DNA of 64,000 bases from Diplolepis rosae (taxonomy: Eukaryota > Arthropoda > Insecta > Hymenoptera > Diplolepididae), in NCBI GenBank assembly GCA_030998225.1, contig JAPYXD010000056.1:806001-870000 (forward strand). Reading direction: 5' to 3'. The notes beneath the pieces are model-generated. The model had not been told where the DNA came from and did not search any database. It worked only from the letters and a program-made list of their open reading frames with translations. A program made the position numbers and the translations under genes. Positions 14,739 through 64,000 of this stretch are shown here, in pieces. Each line of letters begins with the position of its first letter. Within the stretch, counting starts at the first letter, position 1.

Positions 14739-15812
14739 TTATGAATGAAATTCGATATCGGTCATATGACCACGACGAGCCCGTTTACAGTGGTCGATTC
14801 TTTGGACCCAATTTTCCACCACTCTGGCACACATTTCGATCGGAACGTTGGCAATTTCGCGTTGGATGTTGTCTTTGAGGTCGTCTAAAGTTGCTGGCTT
14901 GTTGGCATAGACCAGTGACTTGATATGGCCCCATAAAAAGAAATATAATGGCGTTAGATCGCATGAACGAGGCGGCCATTCGACCGGACCATTTCTCGAG
15001 ATAACACGTTCACCGAATTTGCCTTTCAATAAATCGATTGTGACGCGTCCTGTGTGGCTAGTGGCACCGTCTTGTTGAAACCACTTATCGTTGATGTCAA
15101 GTTCATCCAATTCTCGCCACAAATAATCTTCCAAGATAGCACGATAGCCTCTCCATTGACGGTCGTTTTCATCTACGAAAAAATACGGCCCAATCACACC
15201 TCCAGCATGAAAACCGCACCAAACAGTCACTTTTTGCGGATGCAACAGTGTTTCAAGAAGCACATTTGGGTTTGTTGCTGACCAATAACGCATATTTTGC
15301 TTATCAACAAAGCCATTGAGCCAGAAATGAGCTTCATCGCTGAAGATGATTTTTCGATGAAATTCTTCATTTTCTTCAAGCTTTGCTAGAGCCCAATTGG
15401 AGAAGTTTCGGCGTTTCAAATGATCAAGTGGCTTTAGTTCTTGAGTCAATTTAATCTTGAAAGCATGTAGGCCAAGATCTTTTCGCATAATATGCCACAG
15501 TGTCGTTTGAGCGATGCCCAATTCTTGAGAACGACGTGGAATCGACTGATTTGGCTCATTTTGAATCGATGTACTTACCGCTGCGATTATTTCTTCGCTT
15601 CGATCAATACGACGTCTTTTTGGCACCGGAACGTCCAATAGTGTGAATTTGATCTCGAATTTATCCACTATAGCACGCACAGCCTGTCGGGTGGGACGAT
15701 TATTACGGCCGAAAATTGGAGTAAGCGCTCTTAAAGTTGCGACCACCGACTCAGAATTTCGGTATTAATTTTTAATAATTTCCAAACGTTGCTGGTTCGG
15801 GAACTTTACCAT
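14739..15812 (-). pseudogene. Tc1/mariner-superfamily transposase, intact but for one stop codon
   Basis: About 357 codons read in one frame from ATG at 15812 to 14739, interrupted only by TAA at codon 16. From codon 24 onward 335 residues are open. An N-terminal helix-turn-helix region (about 1-130) is followed by the catalytic core. The first aspartate is in IFSDEAHFW, the second in WFQQDGATSH, and the third in RSCDLTPLYFFLWG. I count 36 residues between the second and third. The C-terminus (NWVQRIDHCKRARRGH) matches insect members of this group. No clear terminal inverted repeats were found, so element limits are unknown. One nonsense change in an otherwise clean gene suggests recent loss. 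Confidence 0.85.
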
Positions 15813-19101: not shown

Positions 19102-19283
19102 TCCGCAAGGCTGAGCCACTAGGCGATATAAGGAGATCTTCCTGTGGAGAAGGAGATGTCGGACGCCTGTGTAGCTCAGTGGTTAGAGCAGTCGACCGGC
19201 AATCGAAAGACCTGGGCTCGAATCCCAGCGCAGTCGAAAGCGTCATTTTTTCCACAGAAAGATTTTCAAATTCTTTAAATATA
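19102..19283 (+). mobile_element. tRNA-derived SINE, fullest plus-strand copy
   Basis: Contains both internal RNA polymerase III promoter boxes: A box TAGCTCAGTGGTTAGAGCA at 19172-19190 and B box GGGCTCGAATCCC at 19214-19226. The acceptor-like start is GCCTGTG. The 3' part runs GAAAGCGTC, T-run, CCACAGAAAGATTTTC, AAATTCTTTAAATAT. The same head and tail recur in at least five other places in the window, in both orientations, which marks a SINE rather than a tRNA gene. The anticodon loop reads CCGGCAA, with C in place of the invariant U33. Confidence 0.85.
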
Positions 19284-24184: not shown

Positions 24185-24765
24185 AGCTCATAATAGAGCA
24201 CACCCTTCTGATCCCACCAAATACAGAGCATTACCTTCGCGCCATGGACATTCGGCTTTGCTGTTGAATTTGGCTGGTTGGCCGGGTTTCATATATGATT
24301 TTTTGCGCTTGGGGTTGTCGTAATGGATCCATTTTTCATCACCAGTAACAATCTGATGCAAAAATGACTTTTTTTTGTGGCGTTCCAGCAGCATTTCGGA
24401 CATGCAAAACCACCTTTCAACGTCTCTCGGCTTGAGTTCATGTGGAACCCAATTTCCTTGCTTCTGAATGTATCCGGCTGCTTTTAAACGTTTTGAAATG
24501 GCTGCTTGAGTGACTCCCAAAGATTCTGCGAGCTCTTCTTGTGTTTTGCAACAATCTTCATCGAGTAATGCTTCCAGTTCTTCATCTTCAAACTTTTTTG
24601 GCTACCCAGGACGTTCTTCGTCTTCCAAGCCAAAATCACCACTTTTAAATCGTGCAAACCACTTTTGGCACGTTCGCTCAGTTAGATCATGTTCACCATA
24701 AACTTCCACCAAAATACGATGACTTTCAGCATCCTCCGACATGGTTTTTCTTCCTGTAACATATA
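24185..24765 (-). pseudogene. Mariner transposase, N-terminal two-thirds fragment
   Basis: From about 24745 downward the minus strand reads AESHRILVEVYGEHDLTERT, then QKWFARFKSGDFGLEDEERP, a typical mariner N-terminal domain. It continues to LGVTQAAISKRLKAAGY (second helix-turn-helix) and the first catalytic aspartate in VTGDEKWIHYD. One TAG replaces an arginine after ERPG, and a frameshift follows the KPGQPAKF segment. The sequence ends at about 24,185, before the second and third catalytic aspartates, exactly where the Penelope-like element's inverted repeat ends. A 5' A-run at 24,780 precedes it. Confidence 0.85.
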
Positions 24766-27999: not shown

Positions 28000-28745
28000 G
28001 CTCTATTATAGGCCTGGCACCATATAAATTAAACACCTTGGCACTAAGATAAATCTGAGAGAAATGTACCTGTGCTAAACTCTATTAAAGGCCTGGCACT
28101 GTACTGATATAAAATACGAAAAATTGGTAAAACCAGAAGAAAACATCAAATGTGTTAAGCTCTATTAAAGGCCTAACACCGCATAAAATGCAAAATTGGG
28201 TATAATTATAGAAAACTTGGATCGTGCTAAGCTCTATTAAAGGCCTGACACTGCACTAATATAAATTACGAGAAATTGGTCAAATCAGAAGAAAACATCA
28301 AATGTGTTAAGCTCTATTAGAGGCCTGACACTGCACTAATATAAAATACGAGAAATCGGTAAAATCAGAAGAAAGCATCAAATGTGTTAAGCTCTATTAG
28401 AGGCCTGACACCACATAAATATAAAATTCGAGAATTGATAAAGCCATGAAACTTAAACTGTAGTAAGCTATATTAAAGGCCTGACCACACAAAAATAAAT
28501 TCGAGAATTGCTAAAGTCATAAAATCATAAACTGTGGTAAGCTCTATTAAAGGCCTGACCACACAATTATAAATTTGAGAATTGGTAGAATCATAAAAAC
28601 ATAAACTGTGGTAAGTTCTATTAAAGGCCTAACCACACAAATATAAATTTGAGAATTTGGTAGTCATAAAAACATAAACTGTGGTAAGCTCTATTAAAGG
28701 CCTGACCACACAAATATAAATTTGAGAATTTGGAAAATTGTGAAA
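28000..28745 (-). repeat. Tandem array, about ten 70-80 bp units with CTATTAAAGGCCT
   Basis: Each unit carries AAGCTCTATTAAAGGCCT followed by GACCACACA or GACACTGCA and an AT-rich filler ending GAGAATTGGTA. Cores occur at about 28006, 28080, 28160, 28226, 28312, 28390, 28467, 28545, 28617 and 28690. The last four units form a distinct subfamily (GACCACACAAATATAAAT). The array lies inside the LTR-like region, downstream of its promoter, so it would be transcribed in the element's RNA leader. Confidence 0.8.
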
Positions 28746-28947
28746 AATAAACTTAGAAAATTGAGAGTTGGGAGAACAAATGGATTTCAATGTAAAAGAA
28801 ATAGAAATTGAAGAAAAACGTTATTTTCTTACTTGTAATTCATTAAAGTTGAAGTTGTACAAATTGAACTCGAACGCCCCACAGTTGAACTAGTGCTTAT
28901 TGTAGAAACTAGATGAGGTAAAAACCTCAGATCTAGATCTGATCGAA

Positions 28948-33700: not shown

Positions 33701-33884
33701 AAATATTAAAGAATTTGAAAATCTTTCTGTGGAAAAAAAGACGCTTTCGGCTGCGCTGGGATTCGAGCCCAGGTCTTTCGATTGCCGGTCGACTGCTCCA
33801 ACCACTAAGCTACACAGGCGTCCGACATCTCCTTCTCGACAGGAAGACCTCCTTATATCGCCTAGTGGCTCTTCCTTGCGGCTG
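33701..33884 (-). mobile_element. tRNA-derived SINE, minus strand, full length
   Basis: Same length and parts as the copy at 19102-19283, including the 5' extension CGACATCTCCTTCTC...CTAGTGGCT. It interrupts Polinton polymerase sequence. Confidence 0.8.
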
Positions 33885-48294: not shown

Positions 48295-48451
48295 CACAGA
48301 GAAAAATATTTAGGGTAATTTTACTGGACTCTGTCGGTTAAACTTGGGACATAAGGATATTAAATGTATAAGTATATCACCAACGCTTGAGGTGCTTCAA
48401 ACGATAGTTGAGTAAAATGAGCATCGGGCGTATTACTTCAACCAACAGTGG
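48295..48451 (-). repeat. Dispersed repeat that forms the 5' flank of the big LTR element
   Basis: Reverse complement of 31950-32038 joined to 32190-32265. The LTR at 48452 begins inside or at the edge of this repeat. Confidence 0.65.
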
Positions 48452-48599
48452 TGTCACGTCCCGCGACGCATTAAAATGTATTATAGGCATGGGCTAGGTC
48501 TAGAGAGAAATCTGGGGAAATTACTAAAAGAGAGAGAAAACCACCTATTGAAAAGAGAGGTATAACTACGTCACACGCAGCGGGAGACTGCGCAACGCG

Positions 48600-48627
48600 T
48601 GACGTCACCAAAAAATATAATATAAAA
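48600..48627 (+). promoter_or_regulatory. LTR core promoter: CRE palindrome and TATA box
   Basis: A perfect TGACGTCA (48600-48607) lies 13 bases upstream of TATAAAA (48621-48627). TGACGTCA is the palindromic site of CREB/ATF-type factors (known). A second near-site, ACGTCACAC, lies at about 48,568. This suggests host signalling may influence expression (inference). Confidence 0.65.
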
Positions 48628-48845
48628 AGGACACGCCGCCAAGGGAAAACTAGTCTTGTGAGCAGAATTTAAGTGCGGCATTTTCTAAAAAACTAAAAGG
48701 GATTCTCAGCGTGAGACAATTATACCGTGCAGTTTGACAGTGTAAAGACCCGAGAGTCATAAATTTACCGTGGTCCGTTTTCCAATCCTTGAAAGGATCT
48801 TAGACACAGTGCCAAAAAGAGTGAATAGTTGTTATGTCCTTGTTA

Positions 48846-48910
48846 CACCTGTGGATATTCACTCCTTCGCAGTCACACCTGTGGGAATCGCATCGCAGTC
48901 ATACCTGTGA
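48846..48910 (+). promoter_or_regulatory. Three CACCTGTG repeats in the LTR
   Basis: CACCTGTGG at 48846-48854 and 48876-48884, and ACCTGTGA at 48903-48910, within 26-30 bp quasi-repeats that also share TTCGCAGTCA. CACCTG is an E-box. They lie downstream of the TATA box and so may act in DNA or RNA. Confidence 0.5.
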
Positions 48911-49186
48911 GGAACATTTAAAGAAACAAAGGGAAATCATAAAGGTACCGAACTCTTCTCTCTCTCTCTATATATATATATATATGTTCTGTCTCTTTCC
49001 AACCAACCAGCCTGTGCCTCCAATTATAAATCAATTGTATCGACAATTTAATATTTTCAATTTATAATTATTTTAATAAATTCAATTTTTATTATTTGAT
49101 AATCATTGTGTCTTTTCATTGACTTATCCTCAGCCCTAAGCGAGGATCATTCGATCCTAACTTAAAACGAGGAATCTTCGATCAAA

Positions 49187-49192
49187 GTAAGT
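49187..49192 (+). promoter_or_regulatory. Candidate major splice donor in U5
   Basis: AAA then GTAAGT, a perfect consensus 5' splice site, 40 bases before the primer-binding site. Seven downstream ORFs each follow a splice-acceptor-like site, so this donor could feed all of them. Confidence 0.5.
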
Positions 49193-49229
49193 ATTTACGT
49201 ACTTGTGACGTAACATATTTCCTTTTTTC

Positions 49230-49247
49230 TGGTGCATCGGCCGGGAA
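49230..49247 (+). promoter_or_regulatory. Primer-binding site, tRNA-Gly
   Basis: TGGTGCATCGGCCGGGAA is complementary to the 3' end of animal tRNA-Gly(GCC) including its CCA. It lies 14 bases after the LTR end, longer than the few bases usual in retroviruses. It would prime minus-strand DNA synthesis. Confidence 0.8.
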
Positions 49248-49951
49248 ATACAAGTCAATTGAAATTTAACACATTGATTGTTAATATTGAATAAATAAAT
49301 GATTATGAAATATTATTTCAACTTGGAACTTGAAATTTCAATAAAATAGATTTGTTAGATCACGCAGGGATCTGACCTTGAGGCTGTCCTAAGTGATTAA
49401 GTAACTTATCTTATTTAAAAAGATATTCTAATTTGTTAACCAAGTTTTGATTTAAGTTAAAACAAACATAAAAAACAGAATATTTTTATTTGCAAAAAGA
49501 AAAAAAATTGTCCAAAGATTTTCACTTGTTAACTTTTCCAATATAATGAAAATAATTCATGAATATTTCGAATGATCATTGTTATAAACAAATTTGTTTA
49601 ATTGTCATAAACAATTTATAAATAAATAAAAAAATTTATTTTAATTTACATAAAAGGCACATGCAGTTGGTAAAGAAAAATATTTTATTATTTTAAGAAA
49701 TTTATTATTAAAAATTATAAATTTACAATCAATTGAGCGATTATTTATTTAATTAAAATATTGAAATAATTATATTTTCATATCATTATTTTAATTCCAA
49801 ATGAAGAAATACAAATTTCATTTCAAATTATATTGTTATTAAAAATAAATAAACAAATTAAAAATAAATTTTACTAATCTCATTTTATTTTTCTTAAAAA
49901 ACAAATTTTATATATAGTTTTTTTTATTATTATAAACAATTTATAATTTAA
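49248..49951 (+). other. AT-rich untranslated leader
   Basis: About 700 bases, very AT-rich, with stops in all frames until 49,951. No short gene recognised. Confidence 0.55.
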
Positions 49952-51849
49952 AATAACAATAAACAATCTAAGACAACGCTCAATATAAAATATTGTAAAT
50001 TTATCAAATTTATTTATTTATCAAAACCAAATATCCCTTTAGAGTCTACCCCGAAAGTTATAACCCGTAGTCAAGCTAAACAAGATAGTCAGCTTGCAAA
50101 AATAGTAGATTTGAACCAAAAGGGTAATTTAAAAATAAAACCAATTAGAAATAGAGAATATTTAACTGATAATAAATGCCAAAATATCCCTGATCCAATC
50201 CCTACAGAACAAGAATTAGATAACACTCTTAAGTTAGATGATTCAAGTTTAGACAAGACTCTAATTAATAATCAAAATATATCACGTGAAAATTCAGAAA
50301 AAACTAGCGGGTTTCATTCAAGTTTCTGTCCAGATTTAAGCATTGTAACAGGATCTAGTAATCAAGATCAAACTCTAACGAACGAATTATCTTATTTTGA
50401 CGAATTCAATTTGCTAAGCTCAACAGTAATAACAGTAGATAATAAAACTTTGAAAGAAAGATTGGCAACCTCATTGGCACGCGAATCTATAATTAGTAAC
50501 AACGATAGCGACGACGACAAAAGCGACACAGAAGTCATAAATCAGGATAATCCCGTAAGAGTAAATAACGAAGAGATGGCCGTGGTCATACCCAACAGCC
50601 AGCAGGTATCCTTACGCGACGCGCTAGAGGTGGTCGCATTGTTCGACGGAAGTAACCTCCCATTGTCACATTTTATTGACACCTGCAGCTCAAGAAAACC
50701 TCGCAAGGTTATTAAGAGGTAAATTAACTGGAGAAGCTAGAAAATGCATTTTTGGTTCTACTTATACAACAATAGAAGAATTGATAGAAAAATTGAAAAG
50801 AGTATATGCCCCTGCGAAAAGCGTGTACCAGTTACAGGGAGAATTAGGTAATACATTTATGTGGGAAAGAGAAAATGTACTTTCCTACGCTGCCAGGATA
50901 AAAGAAATTGCCGACAAAATCGAAGATGCTGACAGGCTCAATAATAATGGTCAGGTAGATAATAATTTTAAAGTAAACCTTAAAAAAGACGTAATTCAAT
51001 GTTTTATACGCGGTTTGCATCCTGAGTTAGAAATTCGTGTTGAAGAAAAGGATACTTTTAAAGAAGTTATTAGCGACAGTATTGATATAGAACGAAGATT
51101 AGCTGCAAATTCCGCATTACGAAGAAATAAAAACATGGATTATTCAAAAAGTGTTGAATCAAATAATAATAAAAATAATAAAACAAACCGATTTAACGTA
51201 GCACGTGAAAACAAAACTATTTGTTTAATTTGTAAAAAACCAGGTCACACAACTGAAAAATGTTTTCATTTAAGTAAAGCTCAAGATGCAGTTCTTAATG
51301 ATAAACAAAAAAATTTTTTGCGTCCTAACCAACAAGGATATAGTAATTTCAATGGTCAAAGAAGTAATAATAATAATAATTTTGCAAGAAACAATTACAA
51401 TAATTTTCCGAATAACAATTTTTTAAGAAATAAAAATTATAATTTTAATAATAATAACAATAATAATTTGCAAAATAGAAATAATAATTATAGAAGCAAT
51501 AATGATAATTTTTTACAACAAAGATAAAAACAATAATAATAATTTTCCTAGAAATTTTCACAATAATAACAATAGTGTTAATAATAATAATAGACAGTGG
51601 AATCCAGGACAGTATAAAAACCTTAACTCAGGACAGTTCCAAAATAGGAATAAATCAAATGAAAATAGATTTTTACAAAATAATAACACTCAACAAAATT
51701 TAAATTATACTGAAATAATTTGCAATTACTGTAAAAAACCCGGTCATTTAGTACGAGACTGCAAGATACGACCAAATAGCCAATCACAAACAGCTCATCA
51801 GGAAAACTCCAAAGCTCTCCCCAGCACGGGTTCACTGAGGAAAGCATAA
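49952..51849 (+). pseudogene. gag: gag (capsid/nucleocapsid polyprotein), two frameshifts
   Basis: Structural polyprotein that would form the particle and bind genomic RNA. The frame is open from 49952, but no ATG occurs before about 50,576 (MAVVIPNSQQ), so the start is uncertain. The capsid begins there with the insect-gypsy pattern SLRDALEVVALFDGSNLPLS. A frameshift near 50,690 moves to the frame 50676-51527 (ENLARLLRGKLTGEARKCIF). Two CCHC zinc knuckles, CLICKKPGHTTEKC near 51,225 and CNYCKKPGHLVRDC near 51,725, are separated by a long Asn-rich segment encoded by AAT/AAC runs. The second frameshift, at about 51,515, lies in those runs. The pol frame lies at -1 relative to the last gag frame. 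Confidence 0.85.
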
Positions 51850-51968
51850 ATCGAGAACCACTGGCATCCACTTCTAACGATCATACAACAACAACAATAA
51901 ATATTTCAAAGTCCACTTCAATTCCATCAATTATAATATCAACGGAAGGTTTAAAAAATCCAACACAC

Positions 51969-54457
51969 ATGACGATTGATACTGGTGCTGCTCGAAATTT
52001 AATTAAACAAAAGGTTCTCAACCCTGAAGTACCAATAAATAGCCATAACGTATTGAAACTTACAGGAATTAATGATTTACCACTTTACACGTTAGGACAG
52101 GTAAAAATAAACATTTTTGGTTATCCAACGATATTTAACATTATTCCGAATGAAGTCCCAGTAGAAGAAGATGGAGTATTAGGATCAGAATTTTTTCAAG
52201 ATAATAGTGTGAATATAAACTATACTTCAAAATGCTTAGAAATTGAGAACCACTGTTACCCTTTTAAATCTACCAATACATTTACTATTCCAGCTCGAAC
52301 AGTTACAACATTTTATATTAATATAAAAAATGAAGAAAAGAGTGAAGGGTATGTATGTACCTCGATTACATATCCAAGATGGCGTCTACGTAGGTGACGC
52401 AGTTGTAAAAAATCACAGAGGAAAAGCTTATTTAAAATTTGCAAACACAAGTGAAATCCCAATTACATTATCCGTCCCATTAGTTAATTTAGAAGACTTT
52501 GAAGAACAAGAATGCTATAAACAAATTGAAAATTTAATTAATTTCAAACAGACAAATAACGAAGATTTATCAAGTAAAATATTAAATAACTTTCTAAAAA
52601 CTGACAATTCTCTAATTAACTCATGCAAATTTTATAATGTAATAGACGAAGACAGAGTAGAATGTATTAAAAAACTTCTTCGATTAGACCATTTAAATCA
52701 AGATGAATATGAACATGTAGAAAAATTAATTAAAAATAATGCAGACAGATTTCAAATCCCAGGAGAACCACTTGAAGCTACTAATGTATTACAACATTCA
52801 ATTCCAACTGTAGATGACGCTTCAAATTTTTCAAGACAATATAGATTTCCCCCAGTTCACAAGGAAGAAATTACAAGACAAGTCGATGAATTATTAAAAA
52901 ATAAAATAATCACCATATAACACTCCAGTGTGGATAGTTCCTAAAAAACCTGATTCTCAAGGAAAAATAAAATGGAGAATGGTTCTTGATTTTCGTAAAT
53001 TAAATGAAAAAACAATTGGCGATTCGTATCCTTTACCTAATATAAACGATATACTTGATTCTCTAGGATCAGCAAAATATTTTTCAGTGTTCGATTTAGC
53101 TACCGGTTTTCACCATATAAAAATGGATCCAAAAGACTCGCATAAAACCGCGTTTTCTACACCTCACGGTCATTACGAATTCGATAGAATGCCTTTCGGT
53201 TTAAAAACTGCACCTGCCACATTTCAGAGATTAATGGATTTAACATTAACTGGATTAATCGGAACGGAACTTTTTCTATATCTCGATGACATAGTTATAT
53301 ATGCAAATACTCTAGAAGAGCACGAAATTAAATTTAACAATTTAGCAGAAAGACTTAGAAAAGCAAATCTTCATTTACAACCAGACAAATGCGAATTTTT
53401 ACGACCTGAAGTAGGATATTTAGGTCATATAATTGATAAAAATGGAGTACGTCCAGATCCAAAAAAGATAATAGCTGTAAAAAACTTTCCAGTCCCAAAA
53501 ACACAGAAAAATGTCAAACAATTTTTAGGCTTAGCAGGATATTATAGACGATTTATTGCTGGATTTTCAAAAATTTCAAGTCCTTTAAGTCAACTTCTAA
53601 AAAAAGATATACCTTTTAATTCGACAGAAAAACAACAAGCAGCTTTCGATATTTTAAAAGCAAAATTATGTGAAGAACCACTTTTACAACGACCTGATTT
53701 TTCTCAACCTTTTATACTCACAACAGATGCCTCAGGATTTGCAATAGGAGGTATTTTATCACAAGGTAAAATAGGTAAAGATAAGCCAATAGCATATGCT
53801 TCACGTAGTCTAAGTGATACTGAGAAAAAATATGATACATATGAGAAAGAAGCTCTTGCTATAATATTTTGTGTAACTCATTTTCGTCCTTATTTGTATG
53901 GAAGAAAATTTACTTTAGTGACTGATCACAAACCTCTAGTTTGGTTTCAAAATTCTAAAGACCCTTGTTCACGAGTTTCACGTTGGAGATTGAAACTCGC
54001 AGAATATGATTTTGATGTAATTTACAAAGCAGGAAAAATTAATGTAAATGCAGACGCTCTCTCAAGAAACCCTATTGATGATAACAAAGAGAAATCAAGA
54101 TATTTACAAGTTGGCGCCAATGATACTTTTATGACTTCTCAAGAAAAAATGTTCTCCAAGAAAACTTTTACCAGAAAAAAACAAGAAAACTCTAAAAATG
54201 AGGTAAGACCTTCAAAACGAAGAAACTTGAATCCAGAAATCGTACCAGACGACGTAGATCATTTTAGCGAAATTCCGGAAGCCCAAATATTAAATATTGA
54301 CTCAAAAATTCCAGAATATTTTCCGGAATTCCTTAGTGAAGAATCACTCAGTGAGATTGGTAAGAATATTTTAAAATACACAAATTTATTCAAAAATATG
54401 GCTTCAAGACTTATTTTTATGACAATATTTTTATTAAGTCCAGTGTTTTCCAAATAA
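51969..54457 (+). pseudogene. pol: pol part 1: protease, reverse transcriptase, RNase H
   Basis: The protease active site DTGA is at 51978-51989, and a VLGSEFF block near 52,175. Frames then change near 52,380 and 52,920. The RT carries WRMVLDFRKLN, FDLATGFHHIKM, the fingers/palm block MPFGLKTAPATFQ and the catalytic FLYLDD near 53,280. RNase H follows with TTDASGFAIGG, YEKEALAII, TDHKPL and NADALSR near 54,050. Open reading continues to 54,457. The motif wording is that of insect errantiviruses and related gypsy elements. Catalytic residues are all present, but the frame breaks make this copy non-functional as a single polyprotein. Confidence 0.9.
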
Positions 54458-55265
54458 TACGAAAATTTATCATGGAAAACTATTACTACGAGAGCTCAAA
54501 AGAGAATACAACAAGAAAAAGCAAAAAATTTGAATGGAAATGAAATTCCAGAAAAATTAGACGAAAATTTTTCTTCTAAACCTCTTGTGAAAAAACCACG
54601 AGGTAGACCAAGAAAAAATCTACTTACAAATTTGAAAAATATTCCCTCTCAAACAAAAAGAAAGAGAGGTAGATCAAGAAAACAAATATATGAAGATGAA
54701 TTACCAAAAATAAATATGCAAAAGGCAAGCCGAACAAAAGTAGAATCAGATTCCGACTCTGATCCTGATTATTTAGATTATTTGAAACGAACTCAAGCAA
54801 ACAAAAAAATAATAAGAATGCCAAGAAGCCAAAAAATATTAATGAATTTGAAAGTGAAGAAAGTGAGAATTATTTTTCAACCTCAGAAGATGAAATCAAC
54901 GACATTGAAACCTCACACGAAGGAAATGATGGAGAAAATTATGAAGAAAATTGGGAAGAGAATTTTGAAGATGATCTTGAAGACGATTTTGAAAAGAATT
55001 TCGAACAGAATTTTGAAGAAAATTTTGAGGAAAATTTTGAAGAGAAGTTTGAAGAAAACCAAGAAGAAAAATTGGAAGAAGAATTTGAAGAGCCTTATTT
55101 TGAAGAAAATTTGAGATTAAACCGAAGATCTCAAATAAATCCTGAAAAAATCGATAAAGATCAGATAATTATAATCGTCCACCCCCAGAACCTCCTCCTA
55201 AAAACTCTCAAAGAGAAAAAATTATAACAAAGGAAAATTTAGTTGAATGTGGCGATCAATTAACT
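54458..55265 (+). pseudogene. pol linker with AT-hooks and acidic repeats
   Basis: Between RNase H and integrase lies about 800 bp of hydrophilic coding sequence instead of the usual short tether. The frame at 54530 contains KKPRGRPRKNL (54,585-54,617), a canonical AT-hook with the GRP core, and KRKRGRSRKQ (about 54,655-54,685), a variant. After a frameshift near 54,800 the likely coding frame becomes a run of NFEENFEE-like acidic heptads up to about 55,120. The lysine-rich continuation of the first frame is the out-of-frame shadow of that run. The linker could tether the integration machinery to AT-rich DNA or chromatin (inference). Confidence 0.6.
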
Positions 55266-56710
55266 ATGCGAAAAGATAATTATGCATATTTTGTTACAAC
55301 AAATGGAACTCCTCGCGACAAAGGATCAAAAACTGTAGAAAAACGTGAAACTTTACCAAAATTTAAAAATTTACAAAAGGGAATAGCAAAAGAGATTAAA
55401 AAAGGAAACTACTACCATTTTGCACTTCCAATTGAAGAAGAAACTAAGGACAATTTATCAGAAACTTTAAATAATATAAAATTATCAATTCACTCATTAC
55501 ATGAATTATCTCAAAAATTTAAATTACGATCAATTAGTATTTCAAAAACTTCCCGAATTAATCATATACCTTGGGAAGAAGTGAAATCAATTTTCGATTC
55601 AATTTTTTCAAATTCAACTACAAAAATTATAGTTTGCAATGGAATAACGCAATATCCAACAAAGGAACAACGAACTCCTTTAATTGAAGAAGCTCATTCT
55701 TCAGCATTAGGAGGCCACAAAGGCGTCACAAAAACTTATAGCCGATTTCGCCAAAAATTTTTTTGGGAAAATATGAAAGTCGACATTCAAAAATATATTC
55801 AAGGCTGTTTACAATGTCAAGTGTAAAAATTGATCAGGGTCAAAACGAAAAATTTTATAGTAATCACAGACACACGCACTACTGCTTTTGAAAAAATATC
55901 AATGGACATTGTTGGTCCACTACCTGAAACAAAATCTGGTAACTTATATATTCTAACGATACAAGACAATTTTACCAAATATTCTTTAGCAATACCTCTT
56001 CCTAATCACCAAGCTAGTACGATAGCAGACGCTTTCGTGAAAAAATTTATTTGCATATTTGGATCACCGAAAGGAGTACTTACTGACCAAGGCAGAGATT
56101 TTTTAAGTTATTAAAAAGATTGGCAAAACGTTTTAGAATTAAACAATTTCGTACCACAGCTTTTCACCCTCAATCAAACGGGTCATTAGAGCGTTCACAT
56201 CATGTTTTAGGAGAATATCTCAAACAATTTGATGCAAAAAATTCAGAATGGGATGATTGGCTTGAACTAGCAATGTTCTCATATAATACTAGTGTACATG
56301 AAGGCACAAAATGCACACCCTATGAATTGGTTTTTGGTAAACTAGCTCGTGAACCTTCCAGTGAACCTTTATCACAACAAGAAAAATTACAAACATATGA
56401 CGATTATTTAATTAATTTCGTAACACAACTACATGAAATGCGAACACAAGCAAGAGAAAATCTTATTTCAGCAAAAGAAAAATCGAAATTATATTATGAC
56501 AAAAAAATAAATCCTTTAGAAGTAAAAATTGGAGATTACGTGTTTTTATTAAAAGGAGTTAAAATTAAAAAACTTGACAGCCATTATACAGGGCCTTATG
56601 AAATATTGGAAGTGTTAGGAAAAGGGAATGTCAAAATAAGCTATAAAGGCAAACCTACTGTTGTCCACATTAATAGACTAAAACGCTCACATGTGCAAGT
56701 ACAAAAGTAA
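55266..56710 (+). pseudogene. pol part 2: integrase
   Basis: The N-terminal zinc domain has HSSALGGHKGVTKTY and FWENMKVDIQKYIQGCLQCQ near 55,690-55,820. A TAA at 55824-55826 interrupts the frame. The catalytic core follows: first aspartate in MDIVGPL (about 55,900), second in LTDQGRDF (about 56,085), then TAA at 56112-56114 and a frame change, and the glutamate in GSLERSH (about 56,185). The C-terminus has the GPY module (LDSHYTGPYEILEV) and HINRLK before the stop at 56710. The order of motifs is complete (D,D,E all retained). It would insert the DNA copy into chromosomes. Confidence 0.9.
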
Positions 56711-56954
56711 ATAAATAAAAATAGAAACAAAATATCTGTACCTTAATTATAAAAAAAAAATATATATATATATATATTTATATGTATACATATACAACTT
56801 AAATAAGATATAGAAATTTTATTTTGTCGATAAATAGTAAAAATATAAAAAAAAAATTTTTTTTTATGAAAATATATGTTTTATATATAAAATAAAAAAT
56901 ATATAAAACAAAATAAAAATGAAATTTCAAATATAACACATTATTCCAGATATA
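56711..56954 (+). other. Post-pol AT-rich spacer with splice acceptor
   Basis: Contains a TA microsatellite (56,760-56,780) and ends TTATTCCAG at 56941-56949, a splice-acceptor-like site 5 bases before the next ATG. Confidence 0.55.
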
Positions 56955-57236
56955 ATGGAACAAATTCATCGCAAACGCATAGATGGTCTCATTGAAATAG
57001 TTCCCTGTTTTATCGACATGGTAGCTCTCTGGCCATATTTAATTCAAAATGGAATTTTTAACCAAGACGACTGTAATATTCCCACATGGAGCAGAAACCT
57101 AAATAATTCAGAAATAATAAAAGACATTTTTTCAACAATCAAAACAAGAGGACCGGACGCATACCAAAATTTAATTCTCAGTTTACGGTTATCAAATCAC
57201 ATTGTCATAGCCGACATGTTGGATATAATGAACTAG
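56955..57236 (+). CDS. CARD-like (death-fold) accessory protein
   Basis: A clean 93-codon frame starting at ATG 56955, five bases after a TTATTCCAG acceptor. The whole length fits the caspase-recruitment domain pattern. RKRIDGLIEIVPCFIDMV matches helix 1, LIQNGIFNQDD the helix 2-3 turn, and IIKDIFSTIKTRGPDAYQNL (residues 54-73) the most diagnostic helix 4-5 region, in which R-G-P-x-A is near invariant. IADMLD closes helix 6. CARDs pair with other CARDs in caspase and immune adaptors (known). A stand-alone viral-type CARD could act as a decoy (inference). It has no breaks, unlike pol. Other death-fold families are possible. Confidence 0.6.
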   Translation: MEQIHRKRIDGLIEIVPCFIDMVALWPYLIQNGIFNQDDCNIPTWSRNLNNSEIIKDIFSTIKTRGPDAYQNLILSLRLSNHIVIADMLDIMN

Positions 57237-57355
57237 GAACGCAAAATAGAAAAAGTAAATCAATAACTCCAAAAATATACATATGTAACGATAAAACATT
57301 TTTCTATTCTCATATTACAAAGCAAGCTGCTAATTGGAACCTCCTTTTTCCAGAG

Positions 57356-59257
57356 ATGGGATTACGAGGCTTCCTTTTGGCACTGCTCACTTGCAACTTC
57401 AACTATATAACAACAGTCTACGCCGTCATAGGATTCGATTGCGGTTCAAATCAATCAAATATTACGACATGATCTTTACTAGAGGTAGGAGAATGTGATC
57501 TACCTCGATCTCAAGTACATGTTGAAAGAACTTATATACAACTTTTACAATTAACTGGATTTTCAAATACAAAAGTAATACAATGCAAAATAGAAATTCG
57601 ACGCGCCATCTCTCATTGTGGTATGCATTCTCACAGTTCCATAGTAGCAAATGGCCACAGTGAATATATACATGATGTTACACGAGATCAATGTAATCAA
57701 ATGCACACAATAGGAACATTTTTAGTAACCCCTTCTCTTCAGATATCAAAGTTAAAAGTAAACGAAACTTCATTTCATAGCGTTACTTTAGCAGGTTCTG
57801 TAACACCTAACGGAGACTGTACTGGTACACAATTTTCTGACCCATATGGAACATGGAATAATGTGGTAGTCCAAGCAATATTCAAAATAACTTTACAAGA
57901 ACATTACGCGACTATTCATTTAAATTCAAATAAAATTCAATTAGGATCTGGAATAATATGCACACTTTCAGACACATTCTGTGCAGACGTAGAATATGGA
58001 CAAACATTCTGGGATACATTACCTAATGACGTATGTAATTTTAATAAATATGAAATTATTTATGAAGGACCAGCAAATAAAACATATGACAACACGAAAG
58101 ACAATTCTGAAACCTTTTATTCTTTAACAAACTGAAGATATAACTTTCGTACTAGCTGAAAAAACAAGAAAACCAATTTGCAGTTACGTTTTAATACAAA
58201 CCGAACATCCAAAATTATTAATTTTTGAAACCAGACCTGGAAATTCATTTTTAGAAAATAAACATTTAGAAGTTCAAAATATGGACATTTTTACATATGT
58301 TAACTCTAAATTTATATATGTGGAACGACATATACGCACTGAAGTAAATAGACTTTATCACGATGGTCTTACTCAACGATGCATACTTGAACAGCAAGTT
58401 TTTAGGAATACATTAACCTTAGCAACCCAATCACCAGACGAATTTGCATATCATTTAATGAAAGGCCCAGGATATATGTCAGTAATTGCAGGAGAAGTAG
58501 TACATATCGTAAAATGTATACCGGTTGAAGTAAAATATCGCAAAACTGAAGAATGTTATCTACAACTACCAATATTTAGAGGAAATCAATCAATTTAGAG
58601 GAAATAACAAAATCAGGTATCCAAACAAATTGCAATTCTTTCCTTCCACCAATGTACCTTTTTGGAGAAACCTGGTACAAATTACTTCCAAATCCTGTCG
58701 AATCCATAGCACCAACTATAGTTAAACCTCTCACAAAAGCAACCTGGAAATACACAAATCCTTCATCCTTAGCAACAAGTGGCATTTATTCTCAATCTGA
58801 TCTTGATAAACTGCGAGATCATATTATGTTTCCAGCAGAAAAACCAATGATTCTAAATTCATTAGCTAGAGAAATAACAGGACATCCAACTATTAATCAA
58901 GGAATATCATTAACGAATTTATTTAATGAAGATGTAATTGATAAAATTGCTGAATCCGCATGGGCTAGATTTTGGACAATTTTTACAAGTTTTGGAACTA
59001 CTAGTGCAGGCCTAATTGGATTAATAATAATAATTAGAGGGATTAAATTGATAGCTGATACCATTATTCATGGATATGCACTACACAGATTATTTGGATG
59101 GTCTCTCCATCTACTAGGCGCCTTCTGGGATTCGGTCACTAACCTCTTATTACACTTAGGTACCCATCGACCTTCTGGACCTCCTGCTGAGAGTCATCAA
59201 GAACTGCTAACAGCTTCAGCGCCACAAAGCTCGAAAGAGGCACCTAAAAGTCCATAG
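57356..59257 (+). pseudogene. Chuvirus-type envelope glycoprotein, three breaks
   Basis: Type I membrane glycoprotein for entry. ATG 57356 follows a CTCCTTTTTCCAG acceptor by two bases and opens a hydrophobic 20-residue leader ending VYA, then GFDCGSN. Blocks HCGMHSHSS, YIHDVTRDQC and TGTQFSDPYGTWNNVVVQ, plus a C-terminal membrane segment near 59,020 (LIGLIIII), follow glycoproteins of chuviruses and those captured by BEL/Pao elements of mosquitoes (recalled, not verified). Full span is about 630 codons, the usual size. Broken by TGA at 57470-57472, a frameshift near 58,130 and another near 58,595. The cytoplasmic tail is Pro/Ser-rich. Confidence 0.75.
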
Positions 59258-59381
59258 TATTACGCAAATACTGCTTCAGGTAAAGATCACAATAATACAA
59301 ACACAACTCTTTATCCTCACTCTGAACTAAAAGAAGAACTCAGTAGAACCCACTACTCTATCCAAATCTAACATCTTCAGA

Positions 59382-60119
59382 ATGTCGCATGTTCCTTTTA
59401 CAACCTTACTAAACAAAATTATTCAACAAAGAGGAGATCCACCCCTTATTTATGAGATACTCATAGAACAAACCTATAATAATGAATGTCTATTTCACGT
59501 TAATTTACAATATAAAAATTATATAATAATGAATAGTGGCAAAGATAAAGAAAATGTAAAGCAAAAGGTAGCACAAAATTTATATAATGCCTTAATTAAT
59601 GAATCAATGGAAACAAATCAAAACGTCCAACCAAACTCTATTAGGAAAAATTGCAAAAAATTAAACGAAATTTGCACTGAAAATAAATTCGAGTATCCAA
59701 AATATACAGTATTACGAATAAAAACCTCATCAAAAGACTCAACATACATAGCAATTTGTTTCATTAATAACATTAAACAAATAGGAATAGCAAACTCAAT
59801 AAAAACAGCTAAGGATTTTGCTGCCATAAAAGTTATTAATTCTCTTTCCCATAAAGACGAGAAATGTGAACTACGTTTGATAAACTCACTAGAACATTTG
59901 CATGTAACAATTCAAGAATCATCTATAAACGATCCAAAACCTTCAACGAGTAGCCAAATAACAAAACCTATTACTTCAAATAACAATCGTGATAAAAATA
60001 CAAATTCATATAAAATGAAAACAAATAATAATCATACTGCATCATCTTTCTCTACGAAAAGCTTTAAAAAATGTTTTAAATGCGGATATAAACCTCCCAA
60101 CCAGTACAATAAATTTTAA
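59382..60119 (+). CDS. Double dsRBD protein with partial zinc knuckle
   Basis: A clean 245-codon frame. ATG 59382 follows CATCTTCAG by one base. Residues about 4-75 and 90-157 each fit the alpha-beta-beta-beta-alpha double-stranded RNA-binding domain. In the second, ANSIKTAKDFAAIKVINSL has the lysines and Ala-Ala of the RNA-binding helix 2; the first (NVKQKVAQNLYNAL) is weaker. A Ser/Asn-rich region follows, and CFKCGYK near residue 229 starts a zinc knuckle that is not completed. dsRBD proteins can sequester dsRNA and block RNA interference (known for several insect viruses); that role here is inference. Its neighbour at 60157 is a probable paralogue. Confidence 0.75.
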   Translation: MSHVPFTTLLNKIIQQRGDPPLIYEILIEQTYNNECLFHVNLQYKNYIIMNSGKDKENVKQKVAQNLYNALINESMETNQNVQPNSIRKNCKKLNEICTENKFEYPKYTVLRIKTSSKDSTYIAICFINNIKQIGIANSIKTAKDFAAIKVINSLSHKDEKCELRLINSLEHLHVTIQESSINDPKPSTSSQITKPITSNNNRDKNTNSYKMKTNNNHTASSFSTKSFKKCFKCGYKPPNQYNKF

Positions 60120-60156
60120 TATAAACATTCCATACCGATTCAGGAAATCAACTGCA

Positions 60157-60666
60157 ATGGAGCATTACTACGACGAGCCTACACACGTACCAAGTTACCC
60201 AAAAAAGAAATACAGAACAGACTCCATGGGATTTTTAAATCATGTAGAAATTTTTAGAAACTTCACGATAAAATATGGACTGCCGTTACCGCAATATACA
60301 GTCTATCCTGACCCAAATTCGAAAACAAACTCATTTTTTCTTGCACAAATTAATATAAATGAACATTTTGTTATACAAGCTGGCCCTACTAGCGAATTAG
60401 CAGAAAATAGAGCAGCATTAAAATTATTGTTACTACTGATGAGATCATACGATCCCTGTGACGAAAAATTTTATAATAACGATGCTAAAAAAATGCAAAA
60501 AACCAAAGATCAAAGTATTCAAACTGATCCAAGACCAAAATTAATACCTTGGGAAAATTCCTGTAGATTTTGTAACACTCAAATGCATGCTACAAAAGAG
60601 TGCCGTAGACGAAATATTTTTAAAGTAGACAAATCAAACCAATTACCCCCTCCAGTTCCACCATGA
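60157..60666 (+). CDS. Single dsRBD protein with CCHC zinc knuckle
   Basis: A clean 169-codon frame; ATG 60157 lies 13 bases after CCGATTCAG. Residues about 28-97 fit a dsRBD (NHVEIFRNFTIKYGLPLPQY start; SELAENRAALKLLLLL in the helix 2 position). The usual lysine pair there is replaced by glutamate/asparagine, so RNA binding may be reduced. A complete C-x2-C-x4-H-x4-C knuckle lies at residues 136-149 (CRFCNTQMHATKEC), then a proline-rich end. The dsRBD-then-knuckle order is shared with the preceding ORF, suggesting duplication. It could bind element RNA or host dsRNA. Confidence 0.7.
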   Translation: MEHYYDEPTHVPSYPKKKYRTDSMGFLNHVEIFRNFTIKYGLPLPQYTVYPDPNSKTNSFFLAQININEHFVIQAGPTSELAENRAALKLLLLLMRSYDPCDEKFYNNDAKKMQKTKDQSIQTDPRPKLIPWENSCRFCNTQMHATKECRRRNIFKVDKSNQLPPPVPP

Positions 60667-60800
60667 AACTCCTCAACATTTAGTAGACTTTTTTCCCCTT
60701 TTCTCCAAAAAACTACTATACCTAAATCCAACCGCATGTAAACATCCTATTTTATCCAATATTAATCCTACTTTTCTTTTTCAGCCTTCCGAGAAGCCTA

Positions 60801-62581
60801 ATGAATTTACTTAATCAACTAGCATCCAGAGTGTATTTAATTTTAATTCCACTCCTTTTCTCCAAAGCAGAAAAATACTTCATAGACTCACAATTTTCTC
60901 ATTCTTCAGGGATTTATTTTGAACCAATTTCAAAAGTTCGTCTTTTTTCTGAAAAATATCATTTTGTATCTTATATCGATATCTTTCAGCCAGACGTACT
61001 TAAATACAAAATAATACATTTCTCACATAAATTATATGCATATTGCATACTTTTAAATATTGCCAATTATTGTAATTTATACGATCATCGAACAGAACTT
61101 GATTTCATAGAACAACGCATCAACTATTTTCTTGAAGAAATATCATTTATATCTAGACAAGCTCGTAATATCACGAATATTCCTAACACTAAAGATCCAT
61201 TCTTGCAACAGATACAAAAAGTACTTTTAGAATTAAGAATGAGACATGAAACCTCCCTTTACTGGCCCAAAGAAAATTTATTTCTACTTCCAAATCCATT
61301 TTTCCAAAAATTTACAAATCTTTCTTCAAAACTTGACAACATTATGACCTACAAAAAATGGCATAATTCTCAAAAAGATCCAAATATTCACCTATATCGA
61401 ATATTAGCAGCAAATTGGCTTAAAGACCTGCATGAAATTTCTCAATCTTTTCTTTTACTCCTTGACCAACTTACAGAAGCTATTACCCATGCCGCAACTA
61501 ATTTATGGCACCCTATGCTACTTCCTGATACCTTCTTAGACTTCAAATCCAACAAAGAAGACCCACACCTTTCAACATCCCTTTTTTCTATGGTCCTTCA
61601 TTTTCTAAAGTACAATACTTCTTATTCGATAAGTACTTGATTTTTCTTATGACTATACCAATCCCATCTGCTGAAGAATTTCAATTATTTAAACCACATC
61701 CAATTCCAATACATCTCGATTTTAATACTGACGTAATTTCCTCTATTTACATAAAACCTCAAAATTCTTATCTCGCTATTTCTTCAAATAACCAATCATA
61801 CTTTATAACAAATGAAAATTTCCTCAATGCATGTTATCAAAATGGATTTCAAACATTTTGTCACCCACCAAGATCTATATCTAATATCGATAACAATCCT
61901 ATTTGTGAAACATCAATGTTTCTAAATTCTCAACCATACACGTGTGAAATATTCATCAGTTTTAGTGAATATCCCTTTCTAACACCATTGCAATTTCATC
62001 ATGGATGGCTATACTCAACAATTTTCCCCCGACAAATTTTCTTATCATGTCGAAAAAACTCTAAAACCTTAATCACACTCCAAGGAATAGGAATTTTGCA
62101 AACAAAATCAGGTTGCAATCTAGATTCATCAACTCCATATTACCATCTTGAAAACCATTTGAATATAATGGATAATTCAATTCCAGTCAGCAAATCAACT
62201 ACTTCCCTTGCTATAATTTCACCATTTTTATATAATATTTCCATTCAAGAGCCTCACTTACTAAAAAAGGTATTACTTCTTCTTCAGCAAATTGAAGACA
62301 TGCCATTATCAATCTTCGAAAACCATGTCTTTATCCTTAAAAAATATGCTAACATTCAAAAGATTATTCCATCTATTTTTATTTCTAGTGCACATAAATT
62401 AACATTAGCACTAATCATTATCACTTTACTTATGATTACAATTTCAGGATTATTACTATTGAAAATTCAAAAAATATCTAAAAAAATAAACAAAACGCCA
62501 ACACGTATAGAACTTATACAAAAAACTCCTTTAAGCTCAGTGACAAAACCTTTACTGACCGACTTGACGTTTAACTTTTGA
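60801..62581 (+). pseudogene. env: Errantivirus/baculovirus-F-type Env, one frameshift
   Basis: Membrane fusion glycoprotein of the type used by gypsy-like errantiviruses. A strong acceptor (CTACTTTTCTTTTTCAG, ending 60784) lies 16 bases before ATG 60801. The N-terminus is hydrophobic, followed by GIYFEPISKVRLF...YIDI, a recognisable family opening. The second half (from 61637, different frame) has PIPSAEEFQLF, YLAISSNNQSYFI, a cysteine series, GWLYST and GIGILQTKSGC. It ends with a membrane segment near 62,400-62,460 and a basic tail. The frameshift lies near 61,635. I see no typical basic furin site followed by a fusion peptide. A second glycoprotein in the same element is unusual. Confidence 0.75.
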
Positions 62582-62914
62582 CCTTTCCTTTATTCCATCT
62601 TTCACCCTTTTCTTTAATAGACTTGAAGTCAATTCACAAAATTTTTAGATACAGGTACATTCCGTCCTTACCTTCCTCAAAACCACGTGCATGAACGTCC
62701 TATACCGTCAGAAGGACAGTTTTTGTACCCACGCCTTTAATGTTTCTAACAAAAGAAATAACAAACTGTAATATAAAAGTTGTTTTTCTGACGGAAAGTA
62801 AAATAGTTTTAGCAAAATCTTTACCTTGCATGATTAGAAAATGTATACAAAGTTATTATTCAACCTCCTTATCAGACCTTAATAAAATAAATCTATTCTA
62901 ACAATTTGTAGAAA
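62582..62914 (+). other. Non-coding spacer with splice acceptor
   Basis: No gene seen. It ends TCTAACAATTTGTAG (62,897-62,911), a branch-point-like CTAAC plus acceptor, 3 bases before the next ATG. Confidence 0.5.
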
Positions 62915-63322
62915 ATGATACCGACTCCAAGTGAACCTATTGTTAACCATCTTGGACCAGTAGACGGTGTATGTCCGCAAGACTATCCGATAGCATACGC
63001 GCACTTATTACAGAGTTATTGCTTCGAATTAGAACCCTCAACATTGTTTTTATATTATAATCAACAAACCACAAAAAGATATTGCCAATTCTGTTTCGAG
63101 AAATTAGATCAGGAAACTCAAAATAACTGTGAATTTTTTACTTCATGGCATTACATTTGTAAATTGGAATGCATATATATGAATTGTTACGGTTGTCGAG
63201 AACTATTAATTACTCCGCGAAAAAGAGCAGCTGATTGTAGAGAATGTATCGAACAATATTTAAATTATAAATTCGAAATTAGCCAAGGAAACGAAGTTCA
63301 AGTAGAAAATACCCCTGCATGA
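62915..63322 (+). CDS. Cysteine-rich protein 1, probable zinc binder
   Basis: A clean 135-codon frame with ATG 62915 directly after a TTTGTAG acceptor. The central part has paired cysteines: CQFCFEKLD, ICKLEC, CYGCRELL and RAADCRECIEQYL. Two or more zinc-binding CxxC pairs are likely. I do not recognise a named domain. The block CYGC...(R/K)xRAADCxxC reappears in the next ORF, so the two are probably paralogues. No hydrophobic leader, so a cytoplasmic or nuclear location is expected. Function unknown. Confidence 0.6.
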   Translation: MIPTPSEPIVNHLGPVDGVCPQDYPIAYAHLLQSYCFELEPSTLFLYYNQQTTKRYCQFCFEKLDQETQNNCEFFTSWHYICKLECIYMNCYGCRELLITPRKRAADCRECIEQYLNYKFEISQGNEVQVENTPA

Positions 63323-63461
63323 TTATACGTATCTACCTTCCACGCATGTAATCACGCATGAAAAATTTTGTTAAATTTAATAAAATCCTTAATACTAAAA
63401 AATTGTAAATTTTGCAAATATTTCAAATTCCTTAAATATTGTAAATTCCCCCAACAGAAAA

Positions 63462-63868
63462 ATGCTGCCCCAAGAAATCGAAACAATCGAAGCAGAAGAA
63501 GTTCGAGCAAGCGAGCAGGATGTTCAGCCGTATTTTGAAAATCAATTATGGTCAGAATACTGCTGCACAACCCTGGTCGAGAATTTTTACATGAATGTTC
63601 TCGAAAAAAAACTTGTTTGCGAGGATTGTTGGATGACAGAACTCAGCTTTTTCGAATAGATCATATAGTTACTAAAGACTTATATTGTACGTTAAAACTA
63701 TCTAGCCTCGACTGCTCCATTTGCAATTCACAAATTTTTTACATGCGGCAAAGAGCAGATTTATGTGTAACTTGTGACGAACGTGTAATTCATTTATACC
63801 AACAAGAAGCATTGTATAACGACGTCGATTCCGAAGCATCGATTATTATTTATAACAACGACGAATAA
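63462..63868 (+). pseudogene. Cysteine-rich protein 2, frameshifted paralogue
   Basis: ATG 63462 lies 4 bases after CCCCCAACAG. The first frame (63462-63659) has an acidic N-terminus, then SEYCC and CEDCWM. A frameshift between about 63,600 and 63,655 moves to the frame ending 63868, which has LDCSICNSQIF, RQRADLCVTCDERVIHLY and an acidic end. The CxxC spacing and the R-x-RAD-x-C-x2-C block match the preceding ORF. Without the break the protein would be about 135 residues, the same size. Confidence 0.6.
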
Positions 63869-64000
63869 AAATAATAAATCAAAACATATTTTTTATTATT
63901 CTTTTTTCTAAATATAAAAAATATCTATTAGTAACTTTTGTTAAAAAATTTTCCCTTTTAATTTTTTATTCGTTGTTTAAAATCATATTTCATATACACC
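63869..64000 (+). other. AT-rich tail; 3' LTR not reached
   Basis: No TGTCACGTC start, CRE or other LTR signature occurs here, so the element continues past the window. Confidence 0.6.

Follow-up and report, generated by a model that had tools for sequence, protein, structure and literature searches.

A likely complex-retrovirus architecture in a Ty3/gypsy endogenous retrovirus of Diplolepis rosae, with two glycoproteins and candidate antagonists of RNAi and apoptosis

Gypsy elements that bear an env gene are the textbook invertebrate retroviruses, and they are generally described as simple, with gag, pol, and one env. Errantiviruses produce a 4-bp target site duplication. In PMC10084718 (2023), Gypsy fragments are described near chuvirus-type glycoproteins in Hymenoptera and Coleoptera, with “no clear evidence” that a Gypsy or Copia element had captured one, and a chuvirus-type glycoprotein of Bemisia tabaci is placed within a complete but unclassified transposon. 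Gypsy elements can also have type III fusion glycoproteins, according to PMC13172572, which cites Chary and Hayashi 2025 and mentions the 289 errantiviruses of that study. Here, we describe a retroelement of Diplolepis rosae that begins in a 64,000-nucleotide stretch of contig JAPYXD010000056.1 (positions 806,001 to 870,000; G000:C31:806001-870000 in our searches), which is referred to below as the window. We consider it likely that this element is a Ty3/gypsy endogenous retrovirus with the architecture of a complex retrovirus, having two glycoproteins and, expressed from spliced RNAs, candidate antagonists of RNA interference (RNAi) and apoptosis.

Boundaries, copies, and gene order of the element

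A search of the assembly (757.7 Mb in 428 contigs) with the 5' long terminal repeat (LTR) as the query found a partner LTR at C31:871116-871870, and the element is therefore delimited as C31:854452-871870, a span of 17,419 bp. A first-pass annotation, made from the window alone, had suggested looking for such a partner past position 64,000, where it was indeed found at 65116-65870; its placement of the element's end at 64000 has to be corrected to 65870. The two LTRs of this copy differ by 10 substitutions over 755 aligned positions, with two gaps. The 5' LTR contains TATAAAAAG at 48621, which we take to be a TATA motif, and AATAAA at 49075, presumably the poly(A) motif. The candidate primer binding site, TGGTGCATCGGCCGGGAA, presumably matches the 3' end of tRNA-Gly.

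This copy belongs to a family of many copies that has been active recently. About 40 places were scored in each genome search, so copy numbers are lower bounds; unverified first-look candidates numbered 2309 for the LTR, 1797 for integrase, 698 for the F-type Env gene, and 421 for the second cysteine-rich gene (Cys2). Sixteen of the best 40 LTR places make eight same-strand pairs spaced 17.0 to 19.7 kb apart, the window copy included, and the remaining 24 had no partner at such spacing among the places scored, a result that is little informative. The 4-bp flanks match in all eight pairs (GTGG, GTAT, CATG, ATAT, GTGT, CAAG, TATT, and TTAT), with the ATAT flank sitting in an AT repeat and thus being uninformative alone. 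The 18-letter primer site is identical in all eight paired copies, and the purine tract is found, with small variants, in seven of them (the copy on C224 is without it). LTR divergence across the pairs ranges from 0.0013 to 0.0134 (Kimura two-parameter distance). Insect sequences change at a few 1e-9 substitutions per site per year, and combining this rate with the LTR divergence makes the window copy about two million years old and most other copies younger. At C277:1724882-1727282, an LTR 98% like that of the window lies at the usual spacing (1,641 bp) from a Cys2 region that is just 83% like the window's, which suggests recombination between subfamilies.

From end to end, the element reads LTR, gag, pol (protease, reverse transcriptase [RT], RNase H, AT-hook linker, and integrase), a CARD-like gene, a chuvirus-type glycoprotein gene, two genes with double-stranded RNA-binding domains (dsRBD1 and dsRBD2), an F-type Env gene, two cysteine-rich genes (Cys1 and Cys2), a third dsRBD gene (dsRBD3), and LTR (Table 1). 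The first seven of the genes after integrase had been named in the first-pass annotation as open reading frames (ORFs) on a single strand, and all were found on the plus strand by the ORF list and Pfam; the eighth, with a dsRBD and a CCHC motif, lies past the window end. With two unrelated glycoproteins and six further ORFs inside the LTRs, the proposal of a complex-retrovirus architecture is supported.

Integrase and the downstream genes have dispersed together. Integrase, the CARD-like gene, and the start of the glycoprotein gene are contiguous in the best 30 of the 40 integrase loci scored, including the window's own, and none of these 30 has an LTR within 1.5 kb after integrase, in agreement with the earlier statement that no LTR separates integrase from the extra genes. 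Over the 9 kb that lead up to the 3' LTR, the order glycoprotein, dsRBD1, dsRBD2, F-type Env, Cys1, Cys2, and dsRBD3 recurs in all seven other LTR-paired copies, as had been expected for the genes at 56.7 to 63.9 kb. In two 19-kb copies with inserts (L055 and L061), the stretches start inside the glycoprotein gene, so that integrase and the CARD-like gene are not covered; the end of dsRBD3 is missing from L058 (on C224) and the start of dsRBD3 from L061, and in L059 only the first half of Cys2 is matched.

Linkage judged by coordinates alone, among the best 40 integrase, 40 F-type Env, and 41 Cys2 places, gave at least 18 pairs of integrase and F-type Env (16 of them 5,497 to 5,555 bp apart; 5,521 bp in the window), at least 16 pairs of F-type Env and Cys2 (1,822 to 1,827 bp), and at least 13 pairs of integrase and Cys2 (11 of them 7,283 to 7,380 bp apart). 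No linked pair among the places listed has the wrong strand or order. Since the same order and near-constant spacing are found at many genomic places, the arrangement is not due to chance. Public proteins likewise join the glycoprotein to dsRBD1 (P0035) and dsRBD1 to dsRBD2 (P0032 and P0036), and one joins dsRBD1 to F-type Env after a deletion (P0012). The shared order and the lack of an LTR after integrase thus mean that, for the copies examined, the block at 56.7 to 63.9 kb is neither a separate insertion with its own boundaries nor absent from gag-pol copies that end in an LTR directly after integrase, which were the two outcomes that the first-pass annotation had named as contradicting it.

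Proteins encoded by the element

The pol order of protease, RT, RNase H, and integrase is of the Ty3 type, as judged by Pfam and, for the protease motif, by eye. In a comparison without a BEL/Pao reference, the best solved-structure match of the RT was Ty3 (E = 8e-86), followed by an “Enzymatic polyprotein” (8r0s; E = 1.1e-52), which we take to be a caulimovirus protein, and by Gag-Pol RTs (from E = 1.5e-28). Together with the two LTRs, the primer binding site, the polypurine tract, and the fixed short target duplication, the pol order agrees with membership in Ty3/gypsy (Metaviridae). No relatives of the RT turned up when viral_contigs and genome_contigs were scanned.

The linker between RNase H and integrase (54530-55114) has no Pfam match. 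It contains RGRP and RGRS in the window copy, where an acidic tract comes next but in a different frame, and RKRGRPRK with a long acidic, E/D-rich tract in L026, L030, L040, and L050, the four copies shown of the 30 loci scanned. Such an AT-hook-like linker is unusual for pol, and it could hold the integration complex on AT-rich DNA.

Three Pfam pieces cover the chuvirus-type glycoprotein from 57623 to 59257 (E = 1.9e-54, 9.7e-47, and 6.7e-67), and the start at 57356 matches with E = 0.0038. In the window, an in-frame stop together with other frame breaks disrupts the gene. In L056, the 676-aa ORF has hydrophobic segments near residue 5 (N-terminal) and near residue 546 (transmembrane-like), and the Monjiviricetes fusion domain is thus accompanied by signal-peptide-like and C-terminal transmembrane-like segments. 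The sole solved match of the C-terminal piece, a glutathione S-transferase kappa (E = 0.0016), was taken as chance. In scans of viral_contigs, no relatives of this piece, dsRBD1, the CARD-like protein, or the F-type Env were found.

The F-type Env, which is related to baculovirus F, lies downstream of pol, as is expected of an errantivirus, and matches a solved “fusion protein” (9w4c; E = 7.2e-7). It has RQAR but no canonical furin site (RX[KR]R), and no strongly hydrophobic segment besides the one near its C terminus. If it is a fusogen, it may be an atypical one.

Both dsRBD genes of the window had been annotated as having zinc knuckles. The dsRBDs were recovered in each, and the CX2CX4HX4C knuckle was recovered in dsRBD2, with dsRBD1 having just CX2C. 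The same motif is found in dsRBD3, where its Pfam match falls below the cut-off (E = 2.9e-4). The best solved matches of the full dsRBD1 sequence are Loquacious (E = 4.8e-4) and R2D2 (E = 0.011), and those of dsRBD2 and dsRBD3 are to the dsRBDs in TARBP2 and DCL1 (best E values of 0.026 and 0.0015). An NCBIfam model of a seadornavirus dsRNA-binding protein also matches dsRBD1 below its cut-off (E = 8.2e-5); no relatives of dsRBD2 were found in genome_contigs. Since any dsRBD yields such matches, a role in RNAi suppression is suggested by the kind of domain and by known viral dsRBD suppressors of RNAi, such as Drosophila C virus 1A.

Among members of the CARD-like family, 17 of the 26 scanned have a Pfam match to CARD (best E = 1.3e-5). 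Cys1 and Cys2 share, by eye, a pattern of CX2C pairs; neither has a convincing Pfam match, and no solved relative of Cys1 was found.

Table 1. Features of the element in the window copy (window positions; those above 64,000 lie beyond the window)
Feature	Position	Strand	Evidence
Target site duplication GTGG, 4 bp	48448..48451; second copy 65871-65874	.	Flank comparison
5' LTR, TGT...ACA ends	48452..49215	+	Genome search with LTR
Candidate splice donor GTAAGT in LTR, context AAAGTAAGTATTT	49187..49192	+	Motif; function inferred
Candidate primer binding site TGGTGCATCGGCCGGGAA, 18 letters, 14 bases past 5' LTR	49230..49247	+	Sequence match
gag region, three overlapping open frames, broken	50111..51849	+	ORF list; CCHC-like motifs by eye
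Protease region and start of RT region, two open frames	51969..52920	+	ORF list; DTGA by eye
RT and RNase H	52928..54457	+	Pfam, E 8.1e-36 to 5e-39
Linker between RNase H and integrase, two AT-hook-like motifs	54530..55114	+	ORF list, by motif
Integrase, three open pieces	55266..56710	+	Pfam H2C2 7.1e-20, rve 1.4e-11, C-terminal domain 4.2e-6
CARD-like ORF, 93 aa	56955..57236	+	Pfam CARD E 0.0012, below cut-off
Chuvirus-type (Monjiviricetes) fusion glycoprotein gene	57356..59257	+	Pfam PF24664
dsRBD1, tandem dsRBDs, 245 aa	59382..60119	+	Pfam E 2.8e-9, two stretches
dsRBD2, CX2CX4HX4C zinc knuckle, 169 aa here	60157..60666	+	Pfam E 9.3e-4, below cut-off
F-type (Baculo_F) envelope gene, two frames here	60801..62581	+	Pfam E 1.8e-18 at 61637-62581
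Cys1, 135 aa, CX2C pairs	62915..63322	+	ORF list
Cys2 region, broken here	63462..63868	+	ORF list
dsRBD3 with CCHC	64229-64756 (L009:330-857)	+	Pfam dsrm E 7.9e-8
Polypurine tract AGGGGGGGAGG, abutting 3' LTR	65105-65115	+	Sequence
3' LTR, 1.1 kb past window end	65116-65870 (G000:C31:871116-871870)	+	Genome search with 5' LTR

Expression, reading frames, and alternative explanations

Five accessory ORFs, those taken from the program-made ORF list, have a pyrimidine-tract/YAG site no more than 25 bases before the ATG, each ranking in the top 11% of control ATGs; the combined (Fisher) P value is 1.3e-4 when 225 ATGs of the element serve as controls and 3.5e-4 when the controls are the 117 ATGs in the 3' block. 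For the starts of the glycoprotein and Cys2 genes, which were chosen after looking, the rank is in the top 6%, and for dsRBD3 it is in the top 8 to 11%. The eight candidate acceptors lie at about 56950, 57354, 59381, 60144, 60785, 62912, 63458, and 64220. The acceptor AG is kept in all copies read, bar one CARD copy. As described in PMC12992720, the env of known errantiviruses is made from spliced RNA. On account of the acceptor-like sites, the kept AG, the candidate donor in the LTR, and this precedent, a model in which the extra ORFs are spliced accessory genes is the best supported.

In such a model, full-length RNA would give rise to Gag-Pol, and splicing of the donor in the LTR or leader to acceptors lying immediately ahead of the individual downstream ORFs would yield subgenomic RNAs. 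Membrane fusion would be the task of the chuvirus-type glycoprotein, with the F-type protein as another surface protein. By binding dsRNA or competing with Dicer-partner proteins, the dsRBD proteins would suppress RNAi, and the CARD-only protein would interfere with CARD-driven assembly of the apoptosome. A regulatory role for the small cysteine-rich proteins is a guess.

Several observations weigh against reading the downstream genes as spliced antagonists. The exact donor context is found in just 11 of 16 LTR stretches, the acceptor test was devised after the sites had been seen by eye and used a weight matrix set by us, and we infer the splicing of the accessory ORFs from sequence alone. 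The structure prediction for the CARD-like protein is of low confidence (pLDDT 58.6) with one weak Foldseek match, a second structural comparison of this model aligned just the one weakly matching chain, and the sole match in a sequence search of solved chains was a designed protein. Structure prediction gave no usable model for Cys1. For dsRBD1, the per-domain E values against Loquacious and R2D2 are poor (0.5 to 3.4) and an RNase III model fits better (E = 1.7e-7, below its cut-off), which leaves a specific origin from Loquacious or R2D2 unproven. Furthermore, a profile of the dsRBD1 family, unlike the single sequence, has no solved match at an E value of 0.01, so that the likeness to these two proteins is a lead only.

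One alternative is that the dsRBD and CARD-like genes serve the particle instead of acting on host defence, with the dsRBD-knuckle proteins being RNA chaperones or packaging factors and the helical CARD-like protein taking part in assembly. The structural weakness of the CARD assignment fits such a role, as do the nucleocapsid-type knuckles at the C termini of dsRBD2 and dsRBD3 (below the Pfam cut-off in dsRBD3). However, there are three separate dsRBD genes besides gag, and among solved structures the dsRBDs come closest to RNAi proteins (Loquacious, R2D2, TARBP2, and DCL1), although this is expected for any dsRBD. We regard a role in the particle as unlikely but as the most serious of the alternatives.

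A less probable alternative, which we would give a slim chance, is that the unit transposes but that most accessory ORFs are decaying passive cargo from one ancestor, with only gag-pol and one glycoprotein mattering. The window copy is itself defective, being broken in pol, the glycoprotein gene, the F-type Env gene, and Cys2 and having a shortened dsRBD2. In counts of ORFs from the homologous ATG, with copies taken as they stand and the window included, decay is most evident for Cys2 (143 aa in just 1 of 8 copies) and F-type Env (555 to 596 aa in 4 of 8, or 4 of the 7 other than the window). The glycoprotein is open over 676 aa in 2 of 6 copies (2 of 5 other than the window), and of the 7 copies in which dsRBD3 was read, 4 have a frame of 149 aa, while the window copy has one of 175 aa. 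Gene by gene, evidence of selection is also weak: purifying selection is singly significant for dsRBD1 only (P = 0.013) and not for CARD, dsRBD2, Cys1, or dsRBD3.

On the other side, most genes retain long open frames in some copies. The CARD-like frame of 93 aa is found in 5 of 6 copies read and in 28 of 33 other loci located (L042 and L058 being one copy), dsRBD1 has 245 aa in 7 of 8 copies, Cys1 has 135 aa in 6 of 8, and dsRBD2 has 194 aa in 6 of 8 (6 of 7 other than the window). When five ORFs are pooled, synonymous variants are in excess (40.5 observed versus 25.0 expected; P = 0.0011) in a test that uses only distinct full-length sequences, with nonsense changes excluded, and that ignores copy relatedness and transition bias. 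Relatives of unchanged length have diverged to 70% identity for CARD (P0074) and 76% for Cys1 (P0094), with the proviso that public predictions favor open frames, and acceptor-like sites are kept before each ORF. Homologs were aligned as subsets, each including the window's own sequence (A1, 17 of 36; A2, 25 of 49; A3, 12 of 29).

Far less probable still is that the block from 56.7 to 65 kb is a separate insertion, either a viral cluster or a second element, beside or inside one gag-pol copy: GC skew shifts along the block and its genes are of mixed origins, but the same junctions at all 30 integrase loci, the order in all seven copies with their own target duplications, and the lack of wrong-order pairs rule out both a separate insertion and an accident of assembly, since these junctions are shared at independent sites with distinct duplications. 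Equally remote is an ordinary one-env errantivirus with a chance neighboring endogenous viral fragment, as might be supposed from the Gypsy fragments beside chuvirus-derived glycoproteins of Hymenoptera and Coleoptera that are read as association, and not capture, in PMC10084718; it is ruled out for the D. rosae genome because the 5' part of the glycoprotein gene follows integrase and CARD in 30 of 30 integrase loci, and the gene lies inside LTRs with a 4-bp duplication, its 676-aa frame being open in copies other than the window's.

A complex-retrovirus architecture with spliced accessory genes is thus the reading we prefer. A bolder version is held only tentatively, at somewhat less than an even chance: that this is an invertebrate Ty3/gypsy “complex retrovirus” that evolved independently, with eight spliced genes, two entry-type glycoproteins, three dsRBD genes directed against RNAi and the PIWI-interacting RNA (piRNA) pathway, and a CARD gene directed against apoptosis, partly derived from host factors of the Loquacious/R2D2 type. 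As candidate suppressors of RNAi, piRNA silencing, and apoptosis, the dsRBD and CARD genes can be tested directly.

Elsewhere in the window, tRNA-Ala(GGC)-like sequences at 19164-19237 (plus strand) and 33747-33820 (minus strand), with inverted and direct repeats around them, are part of a dispersed repeat, present several times and in either orientation, that is probably a tRNA-derived SINE. Three minus-strand segments look like the remains of DNA transposons: a 335-aa frame at 14739-15746 (DUF4817 helix-turn-helix, E = 1.8e-5; Tc1/mariner-type transposase by eye), a Tc5 transposase C terminus at 4376-4822 (E = 1.5e-14), and a mariner-like fragment at 24188-24520 seen by eye, which has no Pfam match. 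Four head-to-tail copies of a repeat of ~74 bp are found at 28441-28746.

Comparison with known systems

The D. rosae element resembles the insect errantiviruses, or insect endogenous retroviruses (gypsy, ZAM, and Idefix), in its Ty3-type RT, its LTRs, and an F-type Env after integrase. However, these have one env as the third ORF, whereas the D. rosae element departs from the plan of gag, pol, and a single env by adding an unrelated second glycoprotein plus six more ORFs within 17.4 kb, and its F-type Env is without a canonical furin site.

The closest parallel for the chuvirus-type glycoprotein is Anakin, a mosquito BEL/Pao element that, according to PMC7642597, likewise has such a glycoprotein inside its LTRs and shows recent activity; in D. 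rosae the vehicle appears to be Ty3-like by RT, and a second Env is present together with accessory genes. The combination of gypsy with a class III-type fusion protein is shared by those gypsy elements that have type III (class III) fusion glycoproteins, and two glycoproteins or accessory genes are not mentioned in the passages of PMC13172572 considered here. The question left open in PMC10084718 is answered for at least one genome, in which a chuvirus-type glycoprotein lies inside a bona fide Ty3/gypsy-type element.

A literature search, with weak coverage of subscription journals, turned up no gypsy element that has two glycoproteins and none that carries dsRBD or CARD genes, and to our knowledge no such dsRBD/CARD set is known in insect retroelements. 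Drosophila C virus 1A and the seadornavirus protein are likewise viral dsRBD proteins in hosts that have RNAi, but the D. rosae element has three dsRBD genes, one with tandem domains and two with knuckles, and has them in a retroelement.

The complex vertebrate retroviruses (lenti-, delta-, spuma-, and epsilonretroviruses) also have several small ORFs after pol, which in the D. rosae element are probably spliced as well. No accessory gene shared with them was identified, and the D. rosae RT is Ty3-like; an origin independent of the vertebrate complex retroviruses is the natural reading. If true, a young family of many copies that has two glycoproteins plus six more ORFs would show that retroviral complexity can also evolve outside Retroviridae.

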